Source: Aurantiochytrium sp. KH105 (taxonomy: Eukaryota; Sar; Bigyra; Thraustochytrida; Thraustochytriidae). Taken from it: DNA of 64,000 nt. Under the pieces are notes generated by a model. That model did not search any database, was not told the DNA's origin, and saw only the letters and a list, made by a program, of their open reading frames with translations. Each line of letters opens with the position of its first letter. Position 1 is the stretch's first letter. The stretch is from assembly GCA_003116975.1 (NCBI GenBank), contig BGKB01000011.1:372001-436000 (forward strand), given 5' to 3'. Positions 25,601 through 58,675 of the stretch are shown here, in pieces. A program made the position numbers and the translations under genes.

Positions 25601-26532
25601 GCTTGCGTGGTGGCACTATGCCCGTTACTTCTTCGAGCGGTATCGATGAGTGGGGGGCGTTGCCTTGTGGCGGCTCGGGAAGCATCCTGGGAAGGAGCAG
25701 GCGATGAGGATCGAGACGTGGGATGAGCCTCTTTGGGCGTGGATGTGGGCGAAGGGGTAGTAGGGGGAGGCGCCGGGTTTGCGTCGATATTGTCGAAGAT
25801 TTGGGCACGTATGTCGTTGTTGTGTGCGCGAATGAGCTCAGGGTTTTCCCAAGAGCTTTGTCCTGTGCGCTTGTTAAAGTAGTAGTGACGTTTTCGCTTT
25901 TCATCCCAATGCTTGGTCCAATTGCGCCCGGGTGAGGTTGATCCGGCTGAGTTCCCAGATGTGTGAGATCCTGCAGAGTGCGGCGAGGTGGTATTTTTGG
26001 CGTTGGCGCCTTTCTCCGCAGACGACGGCGACGAAGTCTGGGCGTCGTCCTGCTTTCGAGGTGGAAATTTGATTTTGACCTCGTCGGGCTCGGTCCACTG
26101 ACGTTGCTTGGTAGCCGTGTTAAAGTAGTAGAGGCGTCCATGCTTGGCACTATATGCGGCGTACCATCCGTTTCCTGTGTATGGCGTTCGCGATGATGTC
26201 AGTAACGTCAACCTCGGCATGGCGGTTTTCGTTCAATGTTGCAAGTCGTTGCGCTTCCTCCCGCGGAGGGCGAGGTGAAGAGAGTTTGATACCAGATGAC
26301 GAAGAATGCATCGCGAATAACGCTCGCGGTGTCTTCGTTGCAAGCAAGCTGGCCTTCGAGCGTGCAAGTTGTCGCGGCAGCGAAGATGCAAGAGCACATT
26401 TTTCGGCGTTTGGTCTGTCTTGCATGATGCTCGTTTGCGTTGGAGCGCTAACGTACCTAGCTTTTGGGTCTTCTTGCCTGCGGAAGCGCCAGCGGTGGCG
26501 CCCGTGCCGGCGCCCGTACGCGCGTCGCTCAT
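22615..26532 (-). CDS. Two-WW-domain protein with a long acidic disordered tail (two exons)
   Basis: Exon 1 is 26532-26457 and exon 2 is 26174-22615; the product is 1211 aa. Exon 1 encodes MSDARTGAGTG...KKTQKLG and is preceded by CAAG. Joining it through the intron gives an uninterrupted first WW domain (W29, YYF 41-43, W52, P55). WW2 is also canonical (W111, YYF 123-125, W134, P137). The remaining 1070 residues are Ser/Asp/Glu/His-rich with no fold I recognise. They include four 11-residue DLDQDGE-type repeats (24427-24577), a SSSSSS run from a GAA-type microsatellite (near 23680-23710), and a conserved-looking C-terminal patch with W, LEFREPEKAW and DLVESLIEE. Likely a nuclear or scaffold protein binding proline-rich partners. 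An ATG at 26220 would give a different start but lies inside the proposed intron and loses the basic lead-in. Confidence 0.88.
26175..26456 (-). other. GT-AG intron in the two-WW gene
   Basis: The minus-strand donor is AG|GTACGT at 26456, and the acceptor is ACACAG| ending at 26175. A CTGAC branch-point candidate (26202-26198) lies about 24 bases before the AG. The intron is 282 bases, phase 1: the last G of exon 1 plus GA of exon 2 make GGA, and the frame is kept exactly. It is the only intron I can support in the window. Confidence 0.8.
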
Positions 26533-36427: not shown

Positions 36428-36756
36428 ATGATTGCGAACGTGGCCTCGACACCGGCGTGCGGCGTGAGCTACGCGTTACCTCCGTCCCCATACGCGCTAG
36501 CCTATCCGAAGCGGCGGCGCGCCCCAAATGTAACAGCAGCAGCAGCAGCGGCAGCCGCAGAAGAACAACAGAGGGATTTCGAGGAGAAACAACACTTGAA
36601 GATGCAACATCAGCACCAGTACAAAAGAAGGCGGCGCTCCAGCGTAGTTGTCGAGGAGAGAGCACACAGACAAGAGCACACGGGCATGGACCACGAACCA
36701 AACTTTGACCTCGCAGATCTCGACGCCTTCCTCAACGAGCACGATGCAGAGACCGA

Positions 36757-36794
<38 letters not shown>

Positions 36795-38692
36795 CAGTGA
36801 CAGCAGGGAACACCACCATCTATGAAGCAGACGCGCACAGCAAAGATGACTGGGCCTTGCTTCAGCCTCTCGAGCAGGATACGCTTATTGCCACTGGCGA
36901 AACGGAGGTCCTCGACGCGTGCGCCACCAATCCCTGGGCCACAAATACACCAACCCCAGGCCTTGGCCGCAACGGCACAGAGGCCCGCGAATTCGCCACG
37001 TTTGATGATGATGACACCGCAGACATTTCACTCGGTGGACAGTCCTACCATCGAGGCTGGCCGCTCGACGATGTCTTTCCTTACGACAGGGACAACATGT
37101 CCAACACGCCCATCAACGTCCCGATTACGGCAATGAACCACACGCGACCCTGGCATCATCATTCTCTTCCGCCCCTCGACCCCTTTCGCAATGGTGGCCT
37201 CGATGGCGCGGCCGAGTCAACACGCTACATCGCCCACGCTGGCATGATGTCCACACCCTGCAGTCATAGCCATGGAGGAGTCATGACCTCTGCCCAGGTC
37301 AGCTATGAACCTGCAAAGCCATTCTACGGCCCTTCCGCAGCAACCTATGTACACCACCACGCGCACTCTTTGCCCCACACCCCCGCGTCGTCGGGTCCCC
37401 TACCATTGGCCCGGAAACCAATCGTCGAGCACATTTCCACGAAGCGCCGGCGAAAGCCAGCAAGCCTGAAAACCAAGGCCAGAGCCTCTGCCTCGTCTGC
37501 TTCTTTGTCTTCGTCGTCGTCGTCATCATCGTCTTTCTCGTTTTCCTCTTCCACCTCTGTATCCTCCACATCATCCACCGCGACGACCAAGACCGTCACA
37601 TCTACATTGGATTCAACAGTGTTGAGCCTGCCTTCTTCGCGAAACATCGCTGCCCCACTGAAGACGCCCAAGCACAACGCCAACGCGACAAACACCTCGA
37701 AAAAGTACGCCTCTGCCACTCCCATTCCTGACGTCAAGAAAAAATGCTCAAAAACCACTCCCAAGACACAGACATCCAAACGCGTGCGCCGCGTTGTGGG
37801 TCAGGTGACCAAGTCTCGCCCCGTCTCCTGGGAGCTCGAGGCCATCATGGCACTCGTGCAGCGTATCAAGATTGATCCCCGCGCCGCAGACAGCGAGGGC
37901 CTCGTATTGGCCCAGGGACACTCCTTGAATCCGCGCGACTTCAAGGACATTGTGCACGCTCTCGGAGCACGCGTCCAAGAGGTTGACTCGCCCAGCTCGG
38001 CGCGTCGAATTCAGCTCGAGCTCGCGCCCGCCTTTAACCCGATCTACAAGCCCATCAACAAGCCGCTCCTGCGCATTGGCCAGGATCTCACCTACGTGAT
38101 GACCTCGGACATTCCCATCAAGGAGCGTCGTCGCTACGATGTCTTTAGCGACTTGCAAATGGGCACTGAGACGGCCTTTTGGTGTGATCAGGGCAATGCT
38201 CACTCTGTCCTCGATGTGTCCAAGAATGTGCAAACCCTGGGGTCCGATGGTCGTCACGTGAACCCGCGCACCATCCAGGTGGCCCACGCGCTTGCGAGCC
38301 GTGTCTCCCGCCTGCTCGATACAGAGGTTTGCGTCATGAAGTGTTTTTACTATGCGCTGTGCACGCGAGGTCCGCCTAAAAAGCGCCGCAAGAGCGAGAC
38401 GGCCGGTGTTCGTCCCACGCCCACGCCGCCTGCGACGCCCATGAGCGCCTCGCGTCCGCTTGGTTTGCACAAGCACATTTATATGCTTTGCGAGCAGTCC
38501 ATCGATGATCGTCACAAGTGTCTTCCCGGGGCTCGCGTGTGGCTTGTGCGCTACTTTATCAAGGGCGACCTCGATCCGGCACTGGCCCCGCTCATTGACA
38601 TGGCTCCTGAGGCTACTGCAGACGTCGGCGCCAAGCCGACCGTCATGAAGCGGGCGCATTCTTCGGAAGCTACTGTTGAGATGCTTGCTTGA
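36428..38692 (+). CDS. Family member A: putative transcription regulator with the shared C-terminal module
   Basis: A protein of 754 aa. The ATG at 36428 directly follows a (GAGC)n leader and has G at -3. The N-terminal half is low-complexity: a first Ala run (about 37-44), a basic patch KRRRRSS (66-72), an acidic-hydrophobic patch NFDLADLDAFLNEHD (92-106), a second Ala run (about 111-121), and a serine block (356-385). Basic clusters KRRRKPAS (339-346) and KRVRR (451-455) could be nuclear signals. The module shared with B and C covers about 499-724: LNPRDFKDIVHALGAR (500-515), KERRRYDVF (565-573), WCDQGNAHSVLDVSK (585-599), VNPRTIQVAHALASRVS (611-627), CFYYALCTR (639-647), LGLHKHIYMLCEQ (678-690) and VWLVRYFIKG (704-713). 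I do not recognise an established family. The composition suggests a DNA-binding regulator, which is inference. Confidence 0.92.
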
Positions 38693-38933
38693 TTGCTCCA
38701 AGGCTTTCCTCGTACAAACAAGAACAATCCTGTCTTCACCCCTTCGATCAATTATCCTGTAAAACTATAACTCTCAGATCTATAAATTCTCTTTCTTTTC
38801 TTGCTACATTGCAGAAAGGTCGAGCGAATGAGCTTTGTCTCGTTGGCGACTAAACGACTTTTGCGACGAATTTCTGCTTGTCTTGTGCTCGGAGAGGGTC
38901 GGGATGGCAAGATCCTACTTCATTTGAGGAGAG

Positions 38934-39630
38934 ACAATCGCAAAGCGCGAGCTCACTTTGTTTGGAAAAAGGACAAACGCAAAGCGCGAGCTCACTTTGT
39001 TTGGAAAAGGATAAGAGGAAAGCGTGAGCTCAGTTTACTTGGAAAAGGACAAGTGGAAAGCGTGAGCTCAGTTAACTTGAAATGGATAAGCGGAAAGCGT
39101 GAGCTCAGCTTGTCTGCAAAGGAAAAAACGCGAAGCAAGCTGCAAGCTCAGTTTGTCTGCACGCAAAGCATGAGCTTAAATTGGTTGGAAAAGGTCACGG
39201 GTAAAGCGTGAGCTCAGTTTGTTTGAAAAAGGACAAACACAAAGCGCGAGCTCAGTTTGTTTACAAAAGGACAAGTGGAAAGCGTGAGCTCAAGTTTTTT
39301 GCAAAGGGAAAAACGCGAAGCAAGCTGCAAGCTCAGTTTGTTTGGGAAAGGACAAGCGAAAAACACAAGCTCAGTTTGTTTGTAAAAAGATAACGCAAAA
39401 CGCAAGCTCAGTTTGTTTGCAAAGGGGAAAACGCGAAGCAAGCTGCAAGCTCAGTTTGTTTGGGAAAGGACAAGCGCAAAACGCAAGCTCAGTTTGTTTG
39501 TGAAAGGACAAGTGAAAACGCATGCTCAGTTTGTTTGGGAAAGGACAAGGGGAAAGCGAGCTTAGTTTGTCTGAACAAGCGCAATGCGAGCGTAGTTCGT
39601 TTGCAAGAGGACAAGCCTAAAGCTCACGTT
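38934..39630. repeat. 38-39-bp minisatellite with a GAGCTCA core
   Basis: About 18 copies of a unit near AAAGCGYGAGCTCA, GTTTGTTTG and GGAAAAGGACAAG. The first two copies (about 38940-39015) are nearly identical with a 39-base period. Later copies change GCGTGAGCTCA to GCAAGCTCA and are interrupted by a second word with CGCGAAGCAAGCTGCAAGCTCA at about 39130, 39310 and 39430. Short open frames here are a by-product of the period, which is close to a multiple of three. Confidence 0.88.
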
Positions 39631-40323
39631 CACGAACAGGATCGGGCTAGAAATGCGACGGATGGAAGGCGTGCTTCTGGACAAGCTCACTTCCACAAAC
39701 CAAATTGAGCCAGCTTCGTCGGGAATGAAGTGAGCGGAAGACTTGATCCTGCATGACAAAAGGGACTCATTTCGATTGAAGCGAAAACCGAGAGGAGCAC
39801 TCATTTACGAACAGAGTTGAGTCAGCTTTATTCAAAGTGCGACAAGTGAAGAGTCCACGTTCACAAACAGAATTGAGCGAACTTGGACGGGGATGAAACG
39901 ATGAAAGGAAACCTTCTCTACCACACACGGAATCGATGCCATTAAACTCGGGCGAGACAAAAGCGCATAGTGATATTAAGTAGAAAGGTCTAAAGCGCAC
40001 GGAATTGAGCCCGCAACGTTGTCGTTGAAAGGCGGCGACTGAGGAATTCGCATCTTCAAACAAAGCCAGACAAGACCATTTCCGATAAAGACAAAAGCGG
40101 AAAGGTTCTTCATCACGTACGACATCGACCTGAATTTGACCGAGACCAGACGGATCCATCGAGCCAGTTTTACCAGAAAATTATGACCTCACCAGGCTTT
40201 CACTTTGGTGACGCATCTATGCGGTCCTGCATGACTTGTGACACGGTTGTGTTGGGTCCTTTCGTTTGGCGACGCCTGCTTTTCGTTTTGCGCAGCCCAG
40301 CAACATTGAGAGTCCTTTCAAGG

Positions 40324-40645
40324 AAGACTCCCAAAGCCAGCGCTGATCTTGCCGAGGCTTATGGACACGCTTCAGGCCCAGCAAGCCGAGCGGCAGGCCG
40401 TGCTGGACAAACTGCAAATGCTGCAGAATGAGCTGCAGGACACCGAGGATAAGAAAAATGCTTTCGAGCAGCAGGTCGCGGACCGTGCCACAAAGCTTGA
40501 CCGCGCCTCGCGTCTCATTGGCGGTCTCGGTGGTGGGAAGACCCCCTGGACGCAATTTGTTGCAGATCTCCGGGTACAGTACGAGAATGCCTTGGGAGCT
40601 ATTCTGCTCTCTTCGGACGTGATCGCCTACCTTGGTGTGTTCGCA
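40324..40645 (+). pseudogene. Dynein heavy-chain fragment (stalk CC2 to AAA5), frameshifted
   Basis: About 107 codons resemble the region where the dynein stalk coiled coil returns to the ring. A heptad helix with LDKLQMLQNELQDTEDKK is followed by LDRASRLIGGLGGGKTPW and then LLSSDVIAYLGVFA, which correspond to the conserved ER-A-LIGGLGGEK-RW and SSG-IAYLGAF motifs of dynein heavy chains. The first 12 codons (40324-40359, PKASADLAEA) are in another frame; one extra T at 40359-40360 separates them from the ATG at 40361. After 40645 the frame runs on to 40813 with unrelated sequence. A dynein heavy chain has more than 4000 residues and the rest is not in the flanks, so this is an orphan piece, not a gene. 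Confidence 0.72.
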
Positions 40646-41184
40646 GACGTACCGATCCTCGTGCATCGAGGGATGGATGTCTTGCACAGCAACAGAGACA
40701 GTGGCAAATCGATCAAAAGACATAGCAAAGGCAAGACGCAGGCAGTAGCCGCTGTCACAACGCCGCAAGAAAGAGACTTGTTCGAGCACTGCAAACAAAT
40801 AAACAATCAATAAACAATCAGATGTGAAACTGATACATTCTTCAAAACATTGTGCAAAGGGTCAATTCGAGAGTAGTACAACTTGTAGTAGGTATGGAAA
40901 GGCACACGGCAGTGGGAGGAGGAGTGAGTGCGCATAAGCGACGCGTCCCGGCAGGGTCGACAACGCCGCTTAGGAGAATGCGAGGCACACGAGGATGCAG
41001 CGGGGTACTGACAGCAGCGTCTGACTTGCATGCATGCTGCTCGAGAGTCTCGCGAGAAAAGTTAATGGGGCAATGGTCACCTTTTCCGTGAAAAGGCTGT
41101 TGAGGTCCGCGCCTCCCGTCTTTTGACACACAGGAAAGAGGGAAGCGGGGCGGCAGCGGCAAATGCGGATGCAACGCAAGCTGC

Positions 41185-42163
41185 TTAGAGGACGAAGCGG
41201 TCGAGCTCCGGGTGCAGCTTACCCTTGACAAAGTAGCGGACGAGCCAAATCTGCGAGCCTGGGAGGATCTTGTGACGGTTGTCGACAGACTGTTCGCAGA
41301 GCACGTAAATGTGCTTGTGAAGACCAAGAGGCCAGGAGCCCGAGAGCGAGCCCTTGGTCTTGCGCAGATTGGACTTGGAGCTCGGTCGGGCGCAGAGCGC
41401 ATAGTAAAAACTTTTAATGATTGGTCGCTCCATTTGTGTGAGACCCGAGACGCGGCGCGCAAGGGCGTGCGCAACCTGGATGGTGCGCGGGTTGACATGT
41501 TTGCCGTCAATGGCGGATTCTTGCAGAGGCTTTGAGCAGTCGAGCATGCAGTGCGCGTTACCCTGGTCGCACCAAAAGGTCGTCTCGCCAGTCTCGAGGG
41601 TCTGATCGCAAAAGGAATCGTAGCGGCGGCGGTCCTTGAGAGGCACGGTTGCGTTCATGATGAAGGTCTTGTCCGGCTGGATGAAGCGGATGCGGTCAGA
41701 GCGCGCGTCCGGCTGAAGAGTGGTGAGCACCTTGGGGTCGATGAGGTCAACGCAGTGGCGGCCACTCGACGCACCATCGACGAGGTGAGCACCAAGGGCT
41801 CGCAGGATGCTCTGGAAGTCGCGAGGGTTGAGATCGATTGCGTTGGGATGCGCCTGGTTGAGAGAGCTCGGTCTTACCGCCGAGGCGGCCGACGAGGGTA
41901 CAAGACGATGCTCTTGCTTGAGCTGCTGCTGCGCTTGGTTCTGGGTTTGAACAAGTGGCAGGTCAGGTTGCTCGATCTCAATGTTGACTTCGCGCTTGAT
42001 AGGCTTAGACGCGGAAGACTGCGTCCGCCTGCGCTTGTTCGCGCGGTCCTCGGCCGCCTTTTGCAAGGGCATCGTTCGGTGCTGACTAGCGTACATGGGG
42101 ACCACTTGCTGTGACCGGTTGCTGAGATCGGGCAGCGCGCCCGAGTACGAGCGCTCGTTGTGA

Positions 42164-42200
<37 letters not shown>

Positions 42201-42660
42201 ACTGGTGAAAAGGGCGCTTAAAGTAGACGTTGCAGCCCTCCTCGAGTTGGACGGTCTGGATGCTGTCGTCCGATGCAAACTGGGAATACTTGAGCATGTC
42301 GTCTTTTGGTGAGACCGGCTGGGAGACGCAGGCGGTTCCTTCGCTAAGGTCGTCCTCGATGGTGGAAGCAAAGGGCAACAAATGCTCGTTCGATGCCCAC
42401 CACTCGCTCTCGTCGAGAGGGGCGGCCCACTCGCCGGCCCAGTCGCGGGAGTCGCTGCTGCTGCCCTGCATTGCGCCGAGGGACTCGAGGTGCTGGTTGA
42501 ATTGCTGCTGCTGCTGCAGCTGCTGCATCTGCTGCATCTGCTGCATCTGCTGCTGCTGCTGCTGCATCTGATGATGTTGCTGCTGGTGATGGTGACTCTC
42601 GAGCATGTGCTCCATCTGGGGCTGCTGGTGGTGCGAGATACTTTGATAATGGTACTGCAT
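41185..42660 (-). CDS. Family member B: Q-rich putative transcription regulator with the shared module
   Basis: A protein of 491 aa. The ATG at 42660 is preceded by CAAG; the frame extends upstream only through leader without an earlier ATG. Residues 1-55 are Gln/His/Met-rich, with a second Gln run at about 155-165 (both from CTG/CAG repeats). An acidic/aromatic patch (DWAGEWAAPLDESEWW, 73-88) resembles an activation segment. ANKRRRTQS (207-215) is a nuclear-signal candidate, followed by IKRE (221-224), a sumoylation-type motif. The shared module fills about 276-491: LNPRDFQSILRALGA (277-291), KDRRRYDSF (342-350), FWCDQGNAHCMLD (362-374), VNPRTIQVAHALARRVS (389-405), FYYALCAR (418-425), GLHKHIYVLCEQ (446-457) and IWLVRYFVKG (471-480), and ends the protein. 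It is the shortest, minimal form of the family and lies tail to tail with member A. Confidence 0.92.
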
Positions 42661-45600
42661 CTTGCTTGTGCTTGCGAGTTGGTCTGGCTTGGGCTCGGGT
42701 TGGTTGCAGGTTTGCCGTGGCTGGCTGCCGCGGTTGAGCGAGCTTTTGCCCTCTTTACCCCGCCGAGCTCTTAAGGCTAGCCTCTTACGTTTCCTGCCTG
42801 TTTCCTTCCTTCCCGCTCTCTCTCCGTCCGCGGCGTCCTTGCCTTGCGGTATAGCTTGCGATATGCCTTGCCGTCGTGGATGGCCGGACGGGCGCGCGGG
42901 CGCGCGGGCGGGCGGGCGGGCGTGCTGGCCTGGTCTCGTGCAGACGGGCACAAGGTGGTCGGGCTGTCGGGCGCGCGCGTGAGCGGGTCTGCCTGGCTTG
43001 GACGCGGGGCTGATTCGGGTCTGCTGCTCTCCTCCCCGCTCCGTTCCTCTTTCTTTCTTCTTTCCTCGTCTGTCAGTCTGTCTCCCGTTCAGCCTCGTTA
43101 GTCTGTTTTAGCGTCTGTCAGTCTGCCCGCGTCTGTCTGTTTGTCGCGCCTGCGAGAAAAGAAAACTAAAAAGAAGGAAAAGAAAAAAGAAAAAAAGAAA
43201 AAAAGAAAAAACAAGCGAAAAGGGAAGAAGGCCAGAAGAACAAGGAGCGAAGAGGAAAATAAAGGGGACGCGCGCTGCGGGACCCTCCCCCCCTCGGCCC
43301 CTGGCAGCGCGAGTCTCGCCGCGCCGCGCCGCGCCAACGACCACCGCCCTCCCGCAGCGCCCAGCAGCGGCAGCGGCAGCCGGTCGGCCGGTCGGTCGGT
43401 CGGTCGTTCGGCCGGCCGGCGCTCGAGAGCCCGCAGTCGCGGCGCCGCTGCGGGGCGAGCCACCAGGGGCGAGCGAGGAGAAAAAAGAAAGAACGAAGAA
43501 AAGAAGATTGAAAAGAAAAAAAAGAGCGTCTCAGACGGTCTACACAGACAGACAGAAAGACCCGGAGAGAGCGAGCTCGAGCCGCCGCGCAGGCAGGCAG
43601 GCAGGCAGGCAGACAGCCAGCCCGCCGGCGCTCGACTCGCTTGCTGGCGCTCGCTCGCTCGCTCGCTCGCTCTCTCGCCGTCTCACCCTCCCTGGCTCCC
43701 TTCCGCGTCGCTTCGCAGGCGGCGGCCTGTGAAGGGCGGCTGTGAGGCGGGCTGGAAAGGCAGAGGCAGGCAGGCCCAGGTCCCCGCCCACCCGCCGCGG
43801 TTCCTGGGTCTTCTTCGGGTGTTCCGCGCCGCGCGGCTTCGGAAGGAAGGCGGGAGGCGGCCAATGGAACGAGCGAATGGAGGGGTCGCTCGCGCCCGAT
43901 CGGTTCTTGGCCTGCGCGCTTGCTTGCTTGCCTGGCTGGCTGGCTGGCGGCGACGCATGAACAAACGCGACGCCGCCCTCGCGCGGAGAGGACAGCGGCC
44001 AAGCGGCGCCGGCGTCGGGAGCCGCGACGAGCCCCGCCGAGACGCGCGGAGAAAGGAGGAGAAACAAAGAGGACAGGAATCGAGACTGCCGCGCCGCGCC
44101 GTGCCGTGCCGTGCTGTGCTGTCCACAGCGATGACCCCCAGCGCCCGCAGCGGCGGCGGGGAAATGGGGCAAAGCTGCGGGGCGCGGGGCGCGAGCGTTC
44201 GCTGCGCTTCGCGCACGTCGGGGCAGAGGGGAAACGGGAAGTTCCGCAGCGGCGTTGCTGCGAACCCACAGCGAGTTCGCAGTTCGGGCAGCGCCAGCAG
44301 TTCAGCTGCGGAGGGCCCGTGCCTGCGCCCCTAACCGGCCTGCTCTTTTCCCGCCCGTCTGTCAGTCAGTCTGTAGTAGAACGTGCGTAGTATGTCCGAA
44401 GCGCGTCTGTCTGCTTTTCGCGCCTGGCAGGAGGAGGCGGAGCTGAGCGCGCGAGAATACAATCGAAGAAAGCCCAACGCACGGCGCGCGGCGGTAGTAA
44501 GGCAAGAGCGGAGGCAGCGGGGGGGGGGGAGATGGACCGGCCGCGAAGAAAAGCGCCGACAGCTAGGAATAGCTGCTGCTGCTGCTGGGCGGTTTGGTGC
44601 GAGAGGGTTCGTCGGCCGATCGATCCATGGATCGATCCTTCGATCCACAGAGCGTCTCTTTTTCATCAGTAGATTATCCGCCTCGCTGGCAAGGATGGAA
44701 AGGTGCATGGGGTCCTCCCAGGAGATACGGAGAGAGGGAGGGAGCGAGGAGGGATCCGCGTCGCGCTCCACGGCGCGCCCAGCAAGGCAAGGAGGCTCGA
44801 GGGCTGGTGGGTTGGCTTGACTTGCATTCATGCTCAAGCATGCGTGCACGCATCCATCCAGTGATTACGCGCCATCTGACAGGCAGGCACGCAGGCAGGC
44901 AGGCCAACTGGCAGGCCGAGCAGGCGGCAGTGCCGGGGTCGTGTGCTGAGTGTGTGTCGCGAGACGCTGCGCTGTGCTGGAGAGCACGAGCCAGGCGCAT
45001 CTTGGCGGTCCAATCGCAGCCGGGAGGGAACGAGGAGAGGCGTCCAAGGTGCCCGCAGCCGCCCACCGAGCGGAGAAGGCGGCGCCCGCGCCCACAGAAT
45101 GAAGCGGCACTTACCGCAGCAAACAGAAAGCGAGAAGCTTCTTTCTCACTGTGGAACGCTGCCTCTGCTCCGGCGCGGGCTCCGACCGCCCGCGCTGACT
45201 CGACCAGCCTGAAGAACCCTTTACGCTCTCTGTCATTCTGTCTGTCGCCCCCCGGAGCCCTCGGGGTTCCGTCCGGACGGGTGGCGGGGGTGCGCCGCGG
45301 CTCGGCACCCTGAGCAAGCGGTGTGTATGCGCAGCGTTGGGTCGCGATGTTCGCGTTCACGCAACCGACGGGGGGCGGGCCGTGGGCAGGCGGGTCTCCC
45401 CTGCGCAACATACTTGCTGGGCCCGCCAGCCGGGATGAAAGAAATTTTGAAACAAAATGAACGAAAGAAAGAAAGAAAGAAAGATTGTTTGGGTGAAAAT
45501 CCGACGCACGGGCGTTCGTTGATTCGATCAGTCAACTAACTGATCGACCGACCAGTGACGGATCGAGCGACCGATCGACCACTCGCTGGGCTCGAGACGG

Positions 45601-47823
45601 TGGCCGGGGGAGAAGGTAGGTAGGGCGGTGGGCCACCGCGAAGGCAGGTGGGCAGCCAGCCACCTGTATCCACGACCGGCCGCTCTGGCTGCGCTGTGCT
45701 GTGCGCGTAGGTGTGGGCGCGCGCGAGGACACAGCACGCTCCACCGCCAAGGGTCTACTACAAACTCAGCTTCTCGCCGAAAGCTCTTGCTTCTCGGCAA
45801 AAAGCTACGATCTGTGGATGTAGCGCAAACGCCGAAGAAAGGCCCGACCGGAGGACTAGGCTGCGGGGCCACGGGCGGCGGCGGGCCGCGGGGAACCGCA
45901 GCCCCGCTCCGCCCCTTCGCCCTTCCTCGCACGCACCCGCGCCAGTGGCCACCCATCTCCGCCGTCGCCATGAATCGCGGCAGGCAGCCCTGCCAACCAT
46001 GCATGCTTGTCTCGCCACGCCAGCCAGCCTGCCAGCCGGCCAGCCGGCCAGCCAGCCAGCCAGTCAGACGCGGCGAGGATTGATTGGCGTGGCGCGCCTC
46101 TTCCACGAGCGCGAAGAAATGAAGCGCAGCGCGGGGCGCCGCGGCCGGGCTCCCCCACACCCGATGAGAGCTGGCTGGCAGGCGAAGCAAGGCAAGGCAA
46201 GGCAAGGCAATGAAGGCGAAATGATGAGGCAAGGCAAGATCGCCGTCGCCTGAACCCTCTCGCTCCGCCGTTCCCGCGCACACTCTCCTGCACTCGCTCG
46301 CTGCCGCCTCGAAGGCACGCACGCACTCTTGCATGCTGCTGCTGATGCATGCAAACCACGTACGCAATCCACGACGCCAGACATGGCGCGCTATGAGCAC
46401 ATAGCGCAGTACCCCGGCGTAGGTGCGGGCCGACCTGGCTGCGACTGCGGTAGGCTGGCCAGAGCCCAGCCGAGCCCGCCGCGCGCCTGGGTCGGTCGCT
46501 TTATTCGTACGCAAGCAGGGAGAGAGCAAGCCTGGAGACACTCGGGCGGGCTTGGCCCTCCGTCTGTGTGTCTGGCTGTGTCTGTTTGTCTCACTATGTG
46601 TGTCGCCTCTTGTTCTTTCTATTCCTTTCTCTCTTTCTATTCTCTACTTTACTTCCTTTTTATACATTCATTCTTTTTTTCTTTTTTCTTTTTTTCTTTT
46701 TTTCATTCTTTCTTTCATTCTTTCTTTCGACCGAAGGAGGAGAAGGAGGAGGAAAGGAAACGCGGGTCGTTGCTGCCCGCTGCGGCTGACTCCGAGAAAG
46801 GCGCAATCAGCGCGACCACTCGAACAAGGGCACGTAGCCACAAAAGCAGGCAAGGTTGCAAGCAAGGTTGCAGAGGCAGGCAGGTACGGGCTGCGGCTCG
46901 ACGGCGCAGAAAAGAAATCGAAGGCGGCGAGGATGACCTCCTGCAAGAGCTACGGAGCAGCCTGCTCCCGCGCGCGAAAAGGCGGAACTGCGGCAAAGCA
47001 TGCAGGATCAGCCAGCCACAGTTCATCTTGTTTCCTACTTTCTCCCTCTCTGAGCTCCCGCCCGAGGAGTACTACACTGTGGGGTCTGCGTAGGGCAGCA
47101 GCCACGGGCGCCTCCCTTCCCTTTCCCTCTCTCCTTCCGAGGGCGTCGCGTCGCCCGCCGCTTCGCTGAGCTGCTTGCGTCTCGTCGCGTCGCCTCGCAG
47201 CGGGTCGAGTCGAGCCAATAACGCGGCCGTGCCTTCCGACCGACCGAAGCATGCGCCGAGCCGAGCTGACCCAGCCAGCGACCACAGCCGAGAGCCAAGG
47301 GCACGCCAGTCTGCACGGCGGCAGCCGAGAGGTCGGTTTTCCACCGTGGAAAGCGGCTTCGTGTCTCCTGCCTGCGTCCACAACCAGCCACCGGCAATGG
47401 CCACAGCCACAGAGGCCGGCCACACACTCGCCCTTTCCCCTCAGCTGCAGCGCAGCCGCCGTCGTGGAGTCCGCTCCGCCTGCGGGCCCCTTTCTTTCTC
47501 CTCCCTTTCTCGCTCTTGCTTTCGCTCCGCGCGACGGACAGAGACGAGGAGAGATAGATAAAGGGCTTCTGGCTGATAGAGATGCAAGCGATGGCAAGGC
47601 GCAAACTAGGCAGCCAAGATACGCACCGCGTCAGCCCCTTCCGCTACCGAGAGCAGCGGCGCGAGCGCTGATCGGTCGGCCGGCCGGCCGGCCCGGCCTC
47701 GGACGGGATGAAGCAGGCGGCGATGGCAGGCGTCGGGAATCTCCGGCCCCGTGCTGCGCTGCGGACGTAGGGCGGCGAGACAAGGCGAGCGGGCAGGCCA
47801 AGCAAGGAGGCGCGGGGAAACAC

Positions 47824-47846
47824 CGATCGATCGATCGATCGATCGG
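47824..47846. repeat. (GATC)n array
   Basis: Five tandem GATC units followed by GGCC and CGACCGACC. Confidence 0.85.
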
Positions 47847-48390
47847 CCGTCGACCGACCTCACAGTAGCGTGGGGCCGGCGGCCTCATGTGGGCCACGGT
47901 GGCGTCACAGATGCAACAGCGAGTGGATTCTGACGTACCACAGTGGTAAAGGAGGGACTTACCGTGCTGGAGAGGCGGCGTCGATTTTGCAGCGCCGGCG
48001 TTTGCGGCACGGAAGCAACCGACCAAGCAAGAGCAAAAATAAATAGAAACAGGCCCGTCGGCCGCACTCGCTCGCGCCGGAAATAAGGACAAGGAGGAAC
48101 GTAAAAAAGGAAACCGCGCAGGCCAGCCGCTCGCTTGCAGGCCGCACGTTGGAAGCGAGCGGTCCCTACGGTCCTGAGCTCTCCCGATCTCTGTATGTCT
48201 GTTTGTCTCCACGTCCGTCTGTCTGACTGTCTGTCTGTCGGTCTGTCTGTCGCCACACGAATGGACGTGCTGACGGTGGGCGTGCACCCCGAAGCAGAGT
48301 TGACGTGCGGACCAGGTCTCCCCACGCTTCACAGTGGATGCTGCAGCGGGGCCGCCTGGAGGGCAATTCTTGGGGTCGGCTTGCGGTTTA

Positions 48391-48500
48391 TCAACGATCG
48401 ATCGATTGGTATGTCCTTGGATGATCGATCATCGAGCCAGCCAGCCAGCCAGCCAGCCAGCCAATCGATCGATCAATTATTCGATCCATCCATCCACTGG
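48391..48500. repeat. Compound GATC / CCAG / CATC array
   Basis: CGATCGATCG, then GATGATCGATC, seven tandem CCAG units (about 48438-48462), again CGATCGATCA and a CCATCC run. Confidence 0.85.
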
Positions 48501-50942
48501 TTCGTCGGTCAATTGCCAGTGCCCGATCGATTGATTGGGTGCACCGCGTGCGGCCCAGAAGGGGCGGAAAGCCGCGACGCCGTTGCCTGTCTGTAGTTAG
48601 TTAGTGTTAGTTAGATAGTTATAGTTAGTTATTCGGTGGCTCTCGGCTGGCTGTACTGCTCGGGCGCAAGTGGACTCGCCGTGCTGTGGAAAAAAAATCG
48701 ATCACTCGGGTCAGCGTCTCGCCGCGAATCGCTCCCCTCTCTTCCGTCCTCCGCTCCGCTCCACTCTGTTACTGCCGCCTCCGCGGGCCGACCATCTCGC
48801 CATCCTTCCGTCCGCGCGGGCATTAACATGTAAATCTTCTAGTACGTTCGTTCATTTTCATCTCCGCGCGGGGCTCAGCGGCCTCGAGGCGCCGTTTCCC
48901 CACCTGGCTGCCCGCAGCGCCTTCCGCATCTGCGCGCAGGGCGCGACGCGGGCCTCCCACGCTTCACAGTGGAAGGCGCAGTGCGGGGATCTGGAGGGGC
49001 GAGCGAGGAATTCGCATTTATTCTCCTTCTTCTCCTACTACTTTTTCTTCCGCGGCGGCGGATCGGGCGTGCGGGCCGGTTGGCTGGCTGGCTGGCTGGC
49101 TCCGCTCGTGGCTGCAGCGCAGCTGGTTGGCTGCATATGGATTGGCAGAGAGCGGGCTCGGACTTTTCAATGCAGCACGGTCTCGGGGTGCCGAATGGAC
49201 TCCACGCCAGGCCGCGCAGTACTTCTGGCACCAAGCACAAAGAGGACGGGGTGAGTGCGTGCGTGCGTTGACGTGCAAGCCTATGCCCTAGTGAGCGAGC
49301 GAGCGAGCGAGCGAGCGTGCGTAGACTTTGATCAGCACAGCAGCCCGCCCCACTGTGTGTGTGGCGGAGACCGCCCATCCATCAATCAATCCATCCATCC
49401 ATCCAAAAAGAGAATAAAGAAAGTCCCTGCACACAGCACGGCAGCGCAGCGTCGCGCCGCGCCGCCAGTCGGTCTCCCTTCTGCACGCACGCGCGCCCCG
49501 CACGCGCGCGCGAAGCACGATAACCAAGACAAAGGAGCGAAAGAAAGGCGCTTTCTCCGCGTCGACGGCGGCAGGCTCCGGCCTTCCTCGACGCCCCCAA
49601 GATGTCTGAGCTTCGCGCTCGAGCCGCTAACTGCGAGCCTGCATTCCTTGAGTCAGCCAGCTTGGCCAGTATAGTCGGGCCCACGAGCGCCCGCAGTCAG
49701 TGGGCGAGAAAAAGAGCGCGGCTGGCGGCGGCACGCACGCACGCACGCACTCATGAGGGCAAATAGGCTGCAGCCGAGGCTGGTCGCCCGCCGCTCAAGC
49801 ACGACAAGGTTCGCCCTTCCACACCCTGGGTTCAACCACGGCCCGCCCCTGACGCTTGCATGCAGTGCAGGTTATGCCGTGACCCTGGCTTGGCCGAGCG
49901 CGAGTGAAAAGATCGAGATAAGATCGGGGCTGCATGGAGGCTGGAAAAGCTCGAAAGCGGCCAAAAAACCGGCAAGAGGACAGGCGACCCATTCCATTTT
50001 TTTTGTTTTACTTTCTTTTTCCCCCTCCGCTCGCCTAAGCCTCTAGCAAAATGGCGGCTCGCTTGGTGGCGGTTGGGTTGGACATCGCTCAACGCGCACG
50101 GCGACGACGCCAGCCGCTCTCTGTCGAAGCGAGCTCGTCGTGGCATGAAAAGGATCAAGACAAAAAACAAAAACATAAAAGAAAACAAGTGAGTGCCGTG
50201 ACCTACGCACCGACCGACCCGTCGCGTCGCTTACTCCAGCGAGCGCCCCATCGCGCCTCCGATCGACCGCCCTCGCACGCTCTCCTCGAGCCCGCAACAA
50301 ACGCTCGCTCGCGACGCCTCCCCCCCACGAGCCCACGCGCACGGAAACCGCCCGCTGGGGAGGAGGCCTGCGAGGCGCGGCGCCTGCTGCTGAGAGCGCC
50401 CGGGAAGCCCTCCGACCCGCGCCAGAGGGGACCACTGCCCTACATCACCTCTCCACAGTGTAAAAGAGCTTATCGCCCTTCTCTTTCCTTTTGCGAAGCA
50501 GCCACACAACCGCTGTTTCTTCTCAGGATGGACGGCCGCCCTCGCGCCGCTGCCGGAGCGCGCGATGGACGTGCGCCGCGCGGGGCTGCGCCTCGTCGCG
50601 TCGCGACACAGCTTCCGCAAAGGACGAACGAACGACAGACACCGCGGCGAGCGGATTGTGCTGCAGAATGGCGGCCAGCTGGCGATGCCGCGGGGTTGGA
50701 TCGAGTCGCAAAGGCGAGGGAAGAGTAGAGGGCAGAAAGCCCTGGCTGAGCTTCATCCGGGCGCAAGGGCGCGGCGAGGCGGACTTTTTCCGAGTCCCGG
50801 ACACGCGACCGAGGCGAGGAGAGCGAGGCGAGGAAAGCGAGTCGCGTCCCTGGACCCGCCAGCGTTTGTGAGCGCGTCGTTGTTGGTTGGCCAAGCTTGG
50901 GGTTCTTTACTCGAGCGAGGATCGACGCGACCGACTGATGGC

Positions 50943-50995
<53 letters not shown>

Positions 50996-51015
50996 GGCTG
51001 GCTGGCTGGCTGGCT
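50943..51015. repeat. Long (GCTT)n then (GCTG)n array
   Basis: About 12 uninterrupted GCTT units change into about five GCTG units. It is the longest perfect tetranucleotide run of the window. Confidence 0.92.
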
Positions 51016-53052
51016 GTCTGGCTTGCGCGAAACAGGCACGCATGCAGGTCCGTTGCGCTCTTCCCGCGCTCGATTCAACCCTGCGGCCACAGCCATTTCT
51101 GGCGTCCCTGCGCGCTTCGAAATGTACAAGCCGTGCAATCAAGAGCGGAAACGAAAGAGGGCTCAAGAAAGGGAAACGGAAACGAATGGGCAGCAAGACG
51201 TCCGCGCTTTCTCTGATCATGATAAGCCAGGCTGCCTCGCTGCGACTGCGCGCCTCATTCGTCCCTTCGCTGGCGCGGCGGTCGCGCGTCGAAGGCCTTC
51301 CTGGCACCGCCGTAGGAACTCACTCACACAGCTGTCACTGCAATTGTGAACATTGTGCGCGTTCATTTTAGCCGCGCTATGTTGTCGACACCAGCCAGCC
51401 AGCCAGCCAGAGCCCGATCCGCGCAGCACGAACGCCGCCGCTCAATGCGCGAGGTCTCCTTCTCCTCCTCGCGCCGACCGAAGCGGCGCGGACACGTCTG
51501 TCGATGGGTCCAGGGACCGTTCTCCTGGCCGCCGCCGAATCCCAGAGTTGAGCGACGGCGGCGGAGGAATGGCCGACGGCTCCCAAGAAACGCAGATATG
51601 AATGAACGCAAGAAGTTTTCGTTTCACAGGCCAGCCTGGGGTTGCAAAAAGAAAAGAATAAGCAAAAAGCAGCCGGCCTGCCCGCCAGCAGGGGCGGAAG
51701 CCTAACTGCAATCAATTGCAACGCATGGCCGTTGAAATGGACCCCGGCGCGAGTCTCAGCCCCGCGCCCTGTCCCGTCCCTGCAACCGAAGTGAGCCCGC
51801 AAGCCAGCCACCCTGGCCGCGTCTCAGCAACGTCGCGTGCAGGCAGCAGCAACAGGCACGCGCAGAATGTGCGACTTGGATGCCGTCGGTCCGCTCGCGC
51901 CAGCCTTGAGGCGCAGACGAGTGGTGGATGGGTGATTGGGTAGATCCTCTCTGCACAACAAATGTGCTGGTGATTCGGTTGGCTTGCAGTCAGCTGCAGC
52001 ATAGTCGGCAAGCAAAAAGGCCACTTGCAGCTGCATGTACCGTCCGCGAAAGTTGTGCACGAGCTTGTGGTGGCGTCGACTCGCTCTTTCTATTCAATTC
52101 CCTGCCAATTTCATGCCTCAAGGAAATGGACAAGTAGAAACCTCTCCTCAAGTTGCAGTTGCTCGATTTGGTTTCCACCCAAAAAAAACAGGAAGCGTCC
52201 GTGGCCGCTACTGCTGCAGCTGCTGATGGATGACGGCCGCGAGGGCAATGAAAGGCTGACGTAGTAGGACGCACAGAAACGCAACGCAAGTCTATTCAAG
52301 CCTAGGCGTCGCAGTAGCAAGCAGCTGCAGCCTGCCAGAACAGCCGCTTTGGGCGGTTGGCTGTGGCCATGGTGGCTGACTGTTGCTTCTGCTAAACTGA
52401 CAACGTGCGGCGGTGGCTTACTACGGCCACTGGCCTGCCCCGCAGCGCACGAAGGCCCCACCCCTCCTATTCAGCAGTGGGGGCTTGGCCCCGCACATCA
52501 CCGCAGCCCATTCCCGGCGTCGCCCCACGCGGACTCCCCGGCGCGGAGGCGAGGGAGGAAGACGTGTCTAACTTCCTGAAAGACCCGCCAGTGACGGGCG
52601 GTCTATCCACTGTGTATAGCTGGCTGTGGAGAATGCAGGCCAGTGGTGGAGGGGCGTGCTACGTGCAGAAAAACAAAATAAAAACAAAATGGGAAGGTGA
52701 TGGGCGGGAAAGTGCGAGCGTACCGCGCGCGCCTGCAGATGCGCGTTGAAATTCTTCGTTGGCGCGTTGACATTTTCGCTACACGGTGGACGGTGCTCGC
52801 GTGGATGCTGGCCAGTTTCCGCTCCGTGGGGGCGCGACGCAGCATGCGAGCCGCTGCCGTCGTCTATCTTCCCTCTCATCCACCCCCCGCGAGCCTGCCT
52901 GATACAAAGCTGCGAGCGAGCGCGCACAATTCCGTTTCCCCCCCGCCAGGCTCCGTCTCATCGTTTTGGGGACGCAAAGCAGGCCCGGCAGCGGCAGCTG
53001 GCTGCGGCATGCGCGGCGGTGAGGACTCAGGTCGACGCGGGTCGGCTCGGGT

Positions 53053-53106
53053 CTCGACTCGACTCGACTCGACTCGACTCGACTCGACTCGACTCGACTC
53101 GACTCG
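53053..53106. repeat. (GACTC)n pentanucleotide array
   Basis: About ten perfect GACTC units; shorter GACTC runs also occur at about 60404-60416. Confidence 0.92.
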
Positions 53107-54399
53107 TCTCTCGACGACGCGAGAGGATTTCTTGCAGAGGCGGGAAAGTCCCGAGTGCGAGCGAGGCCTGGCGGCGGGCGCGGAGGCACGAGCGGCCGCC
53201 TTTCGTCCTGGAGCGAGGGCGCGACCGACCGTACTGGCGTGGCATGCAGATGGCATGGCACGACAGGCTGCCGACTTCGTGCCACGAACCGTCTCGCGTG
53301 GCACCGCCTGGCCTCCCTGCACCGCGCCGCACCTTTCCTCTCTCGTCCCCCACCTTCCCCCCACCTCCCCCCACCTTCCCGTGTCGTACTGGACCCCGCG
53401 CGGGGCCTGCGAACGCGCGAGTTCTTCTCGGGCGCAGCGCGTGCCAGCCAGACAAAGCGCGAGCGAGGGATCGGCCGGGTGCGAATGGGAGTGTAGCGAC
53501 GCTGCAGCAGAGCGTGCGTGCGTGCGCATGCGTACGAAGGGGCGTGTGCGTGCGTGCGAAGGTGCGTGTGCCTATTCTTCTTTTTCATCGTTTTTTGTTT
53601 TCGAAAGCTCTTTGCCACCAGGCACCGCGTCTCCTGCACGGCTCAGGTCTCATTAGAGCTCTTTCGCGGCATGTGCAAAGAACGAAAAAGAAAGTGTTGG
53701 AAGCATGCGGCGACTTGCGACGCCGCACGTCGTGGATTCAGCGAGAGAGCTCTTGCTTGCATCAACACGGCTTGACTTTGGGTTTGTGGTGTCGCTGCCT
53801 TGGCTTGGCTTGGAGACTTGGTGAAAGCAAAACAGATGGGTTGGTGTCTGGTTGGTAGGTTATTTGTCTGGCAGGGATGGATGTCGGAACGAAAAGCCAG
53901 CTTTCCGACGCCGCAAGACCTCCGCGATGCGTTGATCGTCCCTGAAAAAAAAAGTTTTACCACTCCAGGCTACTACCACCTGCAACTGCGAAGTTTAAAC
54001 TAATCTGCGCTGGCTGACCGAAAAAGAAATCGTCGTGGCTGGCATACTATCGCTTTCGTTTCAAGCGTTTCTTTCACACCTGTGAAATTTGTCCCTTGGC
54101 TCAAAATTGCGCAATCGTGGGAGCCTCTCTTGTTTCTCCGTCTGTAGTGTGCTGAGCGGCCTTGAAATCCTCTTTCTATGCTGCTTTAGGCAGCTCCTTT
54201 CAAGAGAATCACTGCTTTGAACGATTTGCCTTTTCGCAAGTCGTGCGAGTCTGTATCACATGATAATGTGCGTCATAAAGCATCCGCAGGCATAGTCGTA
54301 CTTTCCTATGATGGGTTTAGCGTGTTTCGAAGAAAACTTGTCTCTAGTTCCTTGGACGCGTGGGTGCGTCTTGCGTTCTTTCAGCTTGCTTCTGCTTAC

Positions 54400-55215
54400 A
54401 GTTAATAATTCCTAGGCACACAATGCAAGTTTCTACTTTGAGTTTAACAAGCTCGCGCATATTGCGATGTATTCGATTGTTGCGACGTGTTGCCTCGACG
54501 ACGAGTGTGATAGCCGCACGCAGCTACGAGCAAGAGCGTTTTGTTGATGAGCTTGCACATCTTGTGCTCTTTGAGCTTGCTGGTGTTCTGTCTTCTACAT
54601 ACAAAATTAGCGTTTCGATGCGTACTCTTGTCTCTAGTTTGCCTCTCATTGGCTTCTGGCGCTCCTTTTTCTGCCGCTACGTTGCCTCGACGAGTGTGAT
54701 AGCCGTACGTTGCTTGCGCGTCTCGTTCAGCTTGCTGGTAATCTGTCTTCTAGATAGAAAATGAGCCTTTCCAAGTATAATCTTGTCTCTAGTCGGCCTT
54801 TGATAGGCTTACGGCGCGCTTTTGCTTGCTGCTACGTTGCCTCGATGAGCGTGATAGCCGTATGTGGCTTGCGCCTCTTGCGCTCCTTCAGCTTGCGGGT
54901 ATTTTGTCAAGTACATGAATACAATAAGCGATTCGACGCATTTCAAGTGCACGTTTGACAAGCTTTTAGTGCTAATTTTGCTTGCTGCTACGTTGCCTCG
55001 ACGAGCGTGATAGCCGTATGTGGCTTGCGCCTCTTGCGCTCCTTCAGCTTGCGGGTATTTTGTCAAGTACATGAATGCAAGCAGCTATTCGACGCATTTT
55101 TAGTTCACGTTTGACAAGCTTTTAGTGCTAATTTTGCTTGCTGCTACGTTGCCTCGATGAGCGTGATAGCCATACGCGTCTCTCAGCTTTTCAATAAACA
55201 GGCTTGCGCATCTTG
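54400..55215. repeat. 155-bp tandem repeat array
   Basis: A block with CTACGTTGCCTCGA and GAGCGTGATAGCC recurs at about 54483 (divergent), 54676, 54831, 54987 and 55143, with periods of 155-156 bases in the last four. The copies at 54831 and 54987 are almost identical over the whole unit, including TTGCGGGTATTTTGTCAAG. It lies in the AT-rich spacer 3' of family member C. Confidence 0.88.
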
Positions 55216-55489
55216 CGCTCGTGCAGCTTGCTGCTATTTTGTCTTGTACATGAACACAATCAGTGATTGGTACCACACAAGTACGACGCTTACGATTCTA
55301 CAAAATAAGCCGGGGATCACAAGCGTTAGTTAGGACAACAACTACTTCGCTGCGAATTTGTTTCTCTCCCTTGCATCCACCTTGAAAAGGAATAATATGT
55401 GTTTATACCAATGTTGCTTTGCAATGGCTGGCGACTCGTATATGTCTCTTTGTTCAAGAGTCGCCGCCATTGTAATTTCTGTCAAATTC

Positions 55490-58070
55490 TCAAGAAGAAA
55501 AAGGACGTCGCTGGAAACGCGCCGCGCGTCTCTGTTGCAAGCTGTGATCATCCAGTTGCTGCTCTTCGAACGGAAGATCATAGGGATATTGCGAGGGATC
55601 TAGATCGGGGTGCTCGTGCTGATATTCCACCCGCGTTGTCGGGAGAAATGTCACGGCACGCGGAGAGGGACGAGGCCTGGCAAATTCCGTTGCAGGGTGA
55701 TACTGCTGCTGCAGCATCGGTGCCTGCAAATGACCCTGCTGACGCAACGTTCCCCCCGGCTCCAGCGGACTCGCAGGTCCCACCTCTGCCCGCACGCTGG
55801 GCATACCCTCTGGTGCAGAATGCCCGCTTGTGTACACTTGTGTCGAAAGCGTTGCAGGTGCCGACAAGGGTTCGCGATCCAGATTGACCTTTTCCTCAAC
55901 TTCGTGTTGAGCAGTGTCCAACTGCACAAAAGGTTTCAAAGCAGGATGCAATTCGCCCTTGACAAAATATCGCACAAGCCACACGTGCGAACCCTCCAAC
56001 ACGGTGTGCCGACCTTGCACGGTCTGCTCGCACAAAACGTAAATGTGCTTGTGTAAGCCGAGCGAGACAAAGTCACTTGGCGTCGCCCGTCGACGCTTAC
56101 GCTTCACCACGCCGCCCGACTCCTGTGCCGACGCTTCGCCCTTTTGAGCACCTGACAAAGTCGGAGCTCCCGTCGAGCCACCAACGCCATCACCACCTCC
56201 AGACTTTGCCGCAGCTCCAGATTTACGGGGCGAGGGAGACTGCGATGTCCGTCCCTTCGGCGAAGGCATGCGTCGATCTGTCGTGTCTGACTCGGCGCGA
56301 GACCGTTTCGGCTCGCCCCGTGAACACAACGAGTAGTAATAAGCTTTTAGAACGGGAATTTCCGTATCTTGCAGCTTACTCACGCGGTTTGCCAACGCAT
56401 GCGCAACCTGAATTGTACGCGGATTTACCTGCTTGCCATTTTCTGGCGAATACCGCAGCTCCTTTACAACATCAAGAACGGAATGCGCATTGCCCTGATC
56501 GCACCATTGAGCCATGCCACAATGGGGTATGGCCATCTCGTTGAAAATGTCAAAACCACGTCGGTGCTTGATAAGAATACTGTTCGACATCTTGTACGTT
56601 TGTCCTTCGCGGACCAAGGACATAGGCGTATCAATAAGAGTCGGAGGCAGAGCCTCGCGCCCAAGAAGTTCCACGCGGTGTTTGAATGGCGACGGCGCTC
56701 TCGCTGCCTTGTCCCCCTCTCCGTCATCACCATCGTCATCTTGTCCGGCCCTTTCAGTGACAGATCCCGCACCGGACAGACTGCTGTTACCTTTGGGTGA
56801 TCCCTCTTGCATCGCCTCTTGCTTCACAATCACACCTGGCTCGCTCTTGACGTCGCCTTGCACCGAGTCCACCATGTCAGTGACCAGACGAGCGCCCATG
56901 GCAAGCATCAGGCCATGAAAGTCCCTTGGTTTTATTGCAACCTCGCAGCCCTTGGGGAAAATAACGGGCTTGAAGGAAGAACTTGGATTGATGCAGTCCG
57001 AGTGAGGCCTTTGTTTCAAACGGCCCCGCCGCGACTTGACCGCAGATCGACGACTCGTTGTCGGAACCGAGCCAGACGAAGTGGTGCGATTCAACACGCG
57101 CGAATGCGGCGTCCACTTCATCTGGCCGGGTCCGCCTGCCACGCCGCCAATGCGAGAGCGTGGCCCCGGCCACGGCGACATCTGCCGAGGCGGCGGCGCA
57201 TGCATCTCGGGGCTGTAAAATCGCGGACCATATGGACTTCCTGTCCACGCCGCAGGAGTACCGGGTCCACGAGCCGAGATTGGCGCATTTGGAGACAAAC
57301 ACTCGGTGGCCACACTCGCACCATCGTCCGAAACTCTACTCGTTTGCACTTGCAAATGGTGCCTTGGCTGACTTCCAACATACATGTTGGAATGCATACT
57401 ATGCAGGCTCTGCGTACGGTTCATCTGGTGGCCTTCTCCCATGTACTGGCCATGCCCTGCTGCAAAGTTATCCCCTCCACGAAATGGACCTGCCGCATAC
57501 CCGTTGGCTGTCGCGTTCATGCCGTGCGAGGCTGGATCGGAATAGATGGGATGCCGCATGGGGTGGCGCGTATCATGAAAGGACTGAGCACGCGGGAGAC
57601 GCCGCGGAGAAACGTCATGTGGGCCGACGGCCGAAATGCCTGCTCGAGGTGCCTGCCGGTGTTCTTGATGCAATGGATAATGTTCAGAGTGGTATTGCAT
57701 CGGCGTCTCAAAGTTTGAGACGAGGCGAGGGCTGGGTTCCTGCATTTGCATTCGCGGCTCCTGATAGCCCGGCGGCGGTATACCGGGCGCTTGCGGCATC
57801 ATCCTGCGAGAGTCCCAAGGATCTGCAGCGTTTCCCCCTGGGCCGCTTGTCGCTCCGACTGCAGAACTCGACAAGCGACCGTCAGCGAGTACATGATCGA
57901 GCGGCCGGCCTTGCGCATGGGCATGTTCATGGTAAGAGGTTGATGCCGAGGATGACTTGCTTGGGTGGTCATGGACTCCGAATGGCGCTCCGTGATGAAC
58001 GCCGCTCGGATTCCTAGTTACGGTTTGTGCTACAGGGCTCTGGCGCGCAACAGTATTGCTGCTACTGCTG

Positions 58071-58107
<37 letters not shown>

Positions 58108-58675
58108 GGCTGCTGCTGCTGCTACTACTATGAAGGTTGGCATATACAGGAGAGATTGCAACATCTGAGGCAAGTTCATCATCGGGATCCTCATGTTCAT
58201 GTTCAGTTTCTTGCAGCAGACCCAGCATCGTGTCCTTCATGTCACCGAGGTCATCCAAAGCATCCACGTTCACATCCCAGTCTGCTAGAGAAGTTTCTGC
58301 GCCAAGCTCTTGGTTTGCGATTTCTTCGCCCTCGCGGATCTCTTCTTGATAATGCCGACGCTCTCCTGAAAAAGGAGCAAGTTGGTGCTGTTCTCGATGC
58401 ACAAACATCCGTGCATCTTCACCTCGTCCTTGGTTGCGCGGATGGGGGGGCAGATGCTGATGATACCGCTGGTGCTGCTGGTGCTGCTGATGGTAATCTT
58501 GTTCTTGTGAGTAATGATAGGGTTGAGACGAGCCTCCATCTGAATACGTTTGATGAAAGACAGGATGCTGACCGTGAGAGCGCTGCTGCTGACGATAATG
58601 CTGACCGGCACCTGGACTCATCCCATCACGCATCACCTGCATCCTCGTCCTCTCGTTACCGGGCCCGCCTGCCAT
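55490..58675 (-). CDS. Family member C: large putative transcription regulator with an expanded shared module
   Basis: A protein of 1061 aa. The ATG at 58675 has G at -3. The N-terminus is Gln/His-rich (27-80), followed by an acidic-hydrophobic patch (SLADWDVNVDALDDLGDMK, 129-147) and a serine run (183-206, from an AGC repeat). Residues 210-540 are Pro/Ser/His/Gly-rich. A basic stretch SRRSAVKSRRGRLKQR (541-556) is a nuclear-signal candidate. The shared module lies at about 581-917: IKPRDFHGLMLAMGARLV (581-598), KHRRGFDIF (703-711), WCDQGNAHSVLDVVK (724-738), VNPRTIQVAHALANRVS (750-766), AYYYSLCSR (778-786), LGLHKHIYVLCEQ (872-884) and VWLVRYFVKG (898-907). Compared with A and B it has two insertions: an acidic one with VKSE and VKQE sumoylation-type motifs (609-612, 617-620), and a Ser/Gly/Lys-rich one ending KRKRRR (858-863). 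A tail of about 140 residues follows the module. Confidence 0.92.

Follow-up and report, generated by a model that had tools for sequence, protein, structure and literature searches.

What do three linked paralogous genes of the marine, single-celled thraustochytrid Aurantiochytrium sp. KH105 encode, when all of them carry the same ordered module of sequence motifs? These genes, here called A, B and C, lie within a window of 64,000 nucleotides (contig BGKB01000011.1, hereafter C11, positions 372,001 to 436,000 of the forward strand), which belongs to an assembly of 76.0 Mb in 367 contigs (GCA_003116975.1). We propose, with a probability of about 0.6, that their products act as nuclear, sequence-specific DNA-binding regulators, and that the module represents a new family built on the NAC/WOPR/CG-1/Ssr4 fold. 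This reading takes as established the conserved module, its constraint, the old triplication of the genes and one predicted model, the best matches of which all fall in the NAC/WOPR/CG-1/Ssr4 group. Translation of the three frames revealed no internal stop, and the boundaries of the modules were set from the PRDF motif through the KG motif:

36428..38692, plus strand: gene A, 754 amino acids (module at residues 501-713)
37928..38566, plus strand: module of A (translation checked)
41185..42660, minus strand: gene B, 491 amino acids (module at residues 278-480; the part N-terminal of it is 21% Q)
41221..41829, minus strand: module of B
55490..58675, minus strand: gene C, 1061 amino acids (module at residues 582-907, including two insertions)
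55955..56932, minus strand: module of C

The initial annotation had described seven motif groups in a fixed order, and all of them were found in A, B and C with the order kept; its module ranges lie close to the re-measured ones given above, and the two insertions reported in C were borne out. The likeness of the modules is far above chance, as demonstrated by self-BLASTP with low complexity masked: a comparison of the 443 stop-to-stop frames of at least 80 amino acids in the window gave E-values of 3e-64 for A-B, 1e-33 for A-C and 1e-25 for C-B. Among the 18 frame pairs found at E 1e-6, 12 were mutually overlapping, 3 were the A/B/C pairs, 2 were antisense frames of A/B/C and 1 was a tandem repeat (54447-55084). 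At this threshold, the initial annotation is therefore right that none of the other gene types in the window is accompanied by a close copy, since the remaining pairs are overlaps, antisense frames or a tandem repeat. The parts N-terminal of the modules, described as not alignable, gave no match at E 1 in a masked comparison and a single B-C match (18 residues, E 0.066) in an unmasked one.

The motifs had also been claimed to be under constraint, and this agrees with the ratio of nonsynonymous to synonymous substitution rates (dN/dS) between C11 and contig C50, on which A, B and C are found again. The point estimates for the modules were 0.157 (A), 0.049 (B) and 0.348 (C, insertions included), and those for the remaining part of each gene were 0.370, 0.200 and 0.421, respectively. 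In all three genes the module has the lower value, but the gap is small for C.

Together with nine proteins from outside the window (P0004-P0012), A, B and C constitute a family of 12 sequences. Charge and motif counts were made on all 12; alignments A2 and A3 and the Pfam scan of members included 11 (P0012 left out), while the module profile and the tree were built from 9 (P0004, a near-copy of B, P0007, a near-copy of A, and P0012 left out). The features of the module, with model residues referring to the AlphaFold2 model of B (41188-41853), are:

41797..41817, minus strand: first predicted helix of B, after the PRDF motif (model 13-19)
41539..41583, minus strand: long predicted strand of B with WCDQGNAH (model 91-105), the proposed DNA-contact element
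41551..41574, minus strand: WCDQGNAH of B
38180..38203, plus strand: WCDQGNAH of A
56483..56506, minus strand: WCDQGNAH of C
41458..41496, minus strand: VNPRTIQVAHALA of B (low model confidence here)
38258..38296, plus strand: VNPRTIQVAHALA of A
56390..56428, minus strand: VNPRTIQVAHALA of C
41386..41430, minus strand: predicted strand of B with IIKSFYYALC (model 142-156)
41335..41385, minus strand: variable loop of B, from the FYYALC strand to the LGLHKH strand
38372..38395, plus strand: basic patch PPKKRRKS in this loop of A, a putative nuclear localization signal
56087..56107, minus strand: basic patch VKRKRRR in this loop of C, a putative nuclear localization signal
42022..42042, minus strand: basic patch ANKRRRT of B, upstream of the module, a putative nuclear localization signal
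41296..41334, minus strand: predicted strand of B with LGLHKHIYVLC (model 174-186)
41227..41250, minus strand: last predicted strand of B, IWLVRYFV (model 202-209)

The variant W[CA]DQGNAH occurs in 12/12 family proteins, and the W, D, Q, G, N, A and H of WCDQGNAH are invariant in 11/11 aligned rows (two of which are the near-copies of A and B). IQVAHALA, within the VNPRTIQVAHALA segment, is likewise present in all 12. Every module is net positive, as is the FYYALC-LGLHKH loop in each of the 12 members, at a length of 17-85 residues; the patch resembling a nuclear localization signal is weaker in the loop of B than in those of A and C. The region before the module is net negative in 9/12 proteins, the others being A (+4), C (0) and P0012 (+2), with P0009 and P0012 incomplete.

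The AlphaFold2 model of the B module region is a helix plus five-strand fold. In the structural search, the 11 best rows correspond to five proteins, i.e. the plant factors ANAC019 (3swm/1ut4), ORE1 (7xlj) and rice NAC1 (3ulx), YHR177W (4m8b) and Ssr4 (7k7v), all of which belong to one published structural group, and a gap separates them from the next row among the best 50. The module thus shows the helix plus five strands by which the NAC/WOPR/CG-1/Ssr4 subgroup of the WRKY/GCM1 clan is recognized, with solved members of this subgroup as its best matches. None of the best 50 rows is a solved CG-1, WRKY or GCM1 member, and zinc-finger, p53-like, WRKY and GCM domains are also missing from them, which is not an exclusion of these folds. 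CG-1 was without a solved structure in 2022, according to PMC9252788, and no solved structure was found by sequence for the CG-1 domain of this genome. A second AlphaFold2 model, headed by A and based on the three-row alignment A1, reached a predicted local distance difference test (pLDDT) score of 33.7.

Since NAC and WOPR proteins have DNA-binding domains similar in shape to the one predicted here, A, B and C probably form an unnamed gene-control set, and the regulator role suggested in the initial annotation fits the predicted fold. The twisted sheet would lay one long strand (WCDQGNAH and the following residues) against DNA, the basic variable FYYALC-LGLHKH loop may supply nuclear import signals and an additional DNA contact, and the long low-complexity region before the module could be the half that activates or binds partners. 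In this view, related sites would be read by the three paralogues with different partners.

None of the sequence models tested describes the module. Pfam searches of the 11 members (E up to 10) gave no fitting family (five families, each in a single member, best E 0.018), NCBIfam gave no fitting model for A, B and C (best E 0.017), and in sequence searches of the PDB, for which both B and the family profile served as queries, no match had an E-value below 0.04 and the best one lay outside the module. The four Pfam models of the structural group, i.e. NAM (PF02365), Gti1_Pac2 (PF09729), CG-1 (PF03859) and SWI-SNF_Ssr4_N (PF08549), each matched 0/11 members at E 10 with HMMER's filters on. The genome contains two true CG-1 (CAMTA-type) loci (C31:6147-6491 and C14:208880-209224), presumably one per contig set, which score about 100 bits each and lie apart from A, B and C. 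NAM had no match in the genome, but the controls were likewise without a match, and the sole genomic WOPR match (E 0.108) was dropped, because a stop and extended runs of K/R occur in its stretch. The initial annotation could name no established family, which agrees with the Pfam and NCBIfam results; by its predicted fold, the module does have kin, as it groups with NAC, WOPR and Ssr4 domains.

The likeness to plant NAC and fungal WOPR (Gti1_Pac2) domains therefore concerns the predicted fold. The WKATG motif of NAC is absent from 12/12 family proteins, and NAC domains lie N-terminally in their proteins, whereas the modules of A and B are at or near the C-terminal end. Similarly, RWTDG and WSPSR are absent from all 12 proteins, although the RWTDGxxWSPSR element is present in both solved WOPR domains. 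CAMTA activators carry ankyrin, TIG and IQ parts in addition to CG-1, and no such part was found in A, B or C (Pfam, E 10). With the Ssr4 N-terminal domain, too, only the predicted fold is shared. This domain is described as restricted to fungi in PMC9252788, where two of the subgroup's families, including that of Ssr4, lack support for a DNA-binding role.

In our own profile comparisons, the likeness to CG-1, which had been suspected from sequence before the fold search, is marginal, that to WOPR weak and that to NAC absent. The profiles used for hhalign and our own aligner contained 9, 3, 3 and 2 sequences, and the CG-1 profile combined two domains, the identity of which as CG-1 was verified with Pfam, with the genome's own one. 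With hhalign no proper match of the module to CG-1, NAC or WOPR was obtained. In our own local alignment, shuffles scored as high in 2/60 cases for CG-1, 50/60 for NAC and 13/60 for WOPR. Semi-global alignment with the loop omitted, with the strand core and with the helix plus core gave, per 100 shuffles, 3, 8 and 27 as high for CG-1, 22, 27 and 21 for NAC, and 75, 69 and 82 for WOPR. Ordered block placement gave, per 1000 all-column and within-block shuffles, 45 and 104 for CG-1, 719 and 869 for NAC, and 83 and 80 for WOPR, the WOPR blocks being out of register.

These values are relevant to the possibility that the module is a far-diverged CG-1 domain, derived from a CAMTA-like gene and using the CG-1 DNA contacts, which we consider quite improbable. 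True CG-1 loci do exist in the genome, and when six CG-1 blocks were freely placed, the last three fell, in order, on VIKCFYYALCA, LHKHIYVLC and VWLVRYFV; in addition to the all-column result, 11/720 block orders (true order included) scored as high, and the semi-global alignment with the loop omitted points the same way. DNA binding by CAMTA3 requires W26, W75, H88, YY102/103 and Y132, and W118 to a lesser degree (PMC10417383), and counterparts of H88, YY102/103 and Y132, and of W118, can be placed by eye, but this mapping was done with both sequences already known. Furthermore, the H88 block was not placed on RTIQVAHALA, the within-block, strand core and helix plus core values are weaker, and the local matches of both hhalign and our own aligner fall elsewhere, at YVMSSDVPLKDRRRY, which does not fit the strand order. 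The lack of Pfam CG-1 matches and of ankyrin, TIG and IQ parts also argues against this origin.

Alternatively, the fold could be the same but mediate protein binding within a chromatin complex, as the Ssr4 N-terminal domain does in SWI/SNF and RSC, and not recognize DNA. This is rather unlikely, as the paralogues are three in number, diverged and different in their N-terminal parts, which would be more typical of regulators than of a subunit of a complex, and as every module and every loop has a net positive charge. That the fold assignment is a chance likeness of a beta-rich model, the module being some other beta-rich domain of unknown role, is suggested by the modest Z, the thin alignment and the mixed confidence among models; it appears very unlikely given that one structural group comprises all five proteins represented by the 11 best rows, which are followed by a gap. 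The family is real, old and under constraint; it is novel, its predicted fold being a known one, and its members are probably DNA-binding regulators. A mode of action like that of NAC/WOPR is moderately supported, but there is no support for calling the module a NAC, WOPR or CG-1 domain.

The relatives of A, B and C were sought among 5.8 billion proteins; since only proteins with an identical five-residue word come within reach of this search, it does not demonstrate absence of the family elsewhere. The nine members outside the window comprise 3 proteins of Hondaea, 2 with the source tag lgn, 1 from jgi and mmetsp that is named as a transcript, and 3 from jgi. Hondaea, placed in the Thraustochytriidae, is the sole named organism among them, consistent with the lineage-specific character claimed earlier. 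No relative was found in viral contigs (0/21 pattern matches confirmed) or in bacterial and archaeal genomes (0/75). The counterparts in Hondaea fermentalgiana are FCC1311_051632 for A (98.3% over 357 residues), FCC1311_051612 for B (97.1% over 491) and FCC1311_051602 for C (98.3% over 753); they have neighbouring locus numbers and records of an equal-size contig (165,712).

A, B and C are each closer to a protein from another source (80%, 85% and 64%, respectively) than to one another (45-53%). In the tree of 9 proteins, A grouped with P0006 (95/95), B with P0005 (100/99) and C with P0008 (98/97), while P0010 and P0011 stood apart and the placement of P0009 was unsure. As each groups with a protein of another source, the A, B and C types predate the split of the sources, and "expanded locally", taken as a recent burst, is not supported. 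Judging from these identities and from the neighbouring Hondaea loci, A, B and C are old paralogues that have been kept separately.

A more tentative idea is that the ancient NAC/WOPR/CG-1 fold independently gave rise in thraustochytrids to a few master regulators of their own, in which WCDQGNAH forms a new strand for reading DNA, as plants did with NAC and fungi with WOPR. If so, a third large lineage would have put the fold to a use of its own, which could show the kinship of CG-1, NAC and WOPR. Should the proposed regulator role on this fold be right, the NAC/WOPR/CG-1 fold would gain a family of regulators from neither plants nor fungi, and the three conserved linked genes would lend themselves directly to knock-out and to the mapping of targets. 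Thraustochytrids are investigated as a source of omega-3 oils. No description of the family was found in the open-licence literature, among the matches listed.

Since A, B and C recur on C50, the region is present in the assembly in two diverged versions, reflecting either a hybrid or a diverged diploid. Over the aligned parts, the C50 versions share 93-95% identity with the Hondaea proteins, the Hondaea proteins are nearer to C11, and dS between C11 and C50 is 0.06-0.11. Genome searches gave at least 8 matches for B and at least 10 for P0010, a distant relative (C split in two), and identified at least three family loci in each contig set. No other match was significant, the last two of the 10 with P0010 having E-values of 0.155 and 0.218. 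An inverted-repeat search around A and B gave, among 25 of 43 pairs listed, only the A/B paralogy (opposed genes) and CAG-type runs.

Within gene A, residues 87-352 are 73% identical to the Hondaea protein because a stretch is missing from the Hondaea model. This Ser-rich stretch (window 37263-37619) is open here; it may be an intron, since its length is a multiple of three and it has GT...AG ends, so that its removal would yield the Hondaea protein.

Among the neighbouring frames, two large ones, 11359-13227 (plus strand) and 22615-26220 (minus strand), contain two WW-domain stretches each (Pfam E 1.2e-12 and 7.3e-16); in the 10 frames scanned by Pfam they have this domain in common but do not match as a pair at E 1e-6. 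A PH domain with ankyrin repeats is encoded at 18892-22089 (plus strand), and a kinesin motor domain (E 1.6e-89, profile positions 23-324 of 327) lies at the end of the frame 61424-63334 (plus strand). The short tandem repeat at 54447-55084 (minus strand) is located just past the 3' end of gene C, and its frames read AQATYGYHxRRGNVAA-like units.
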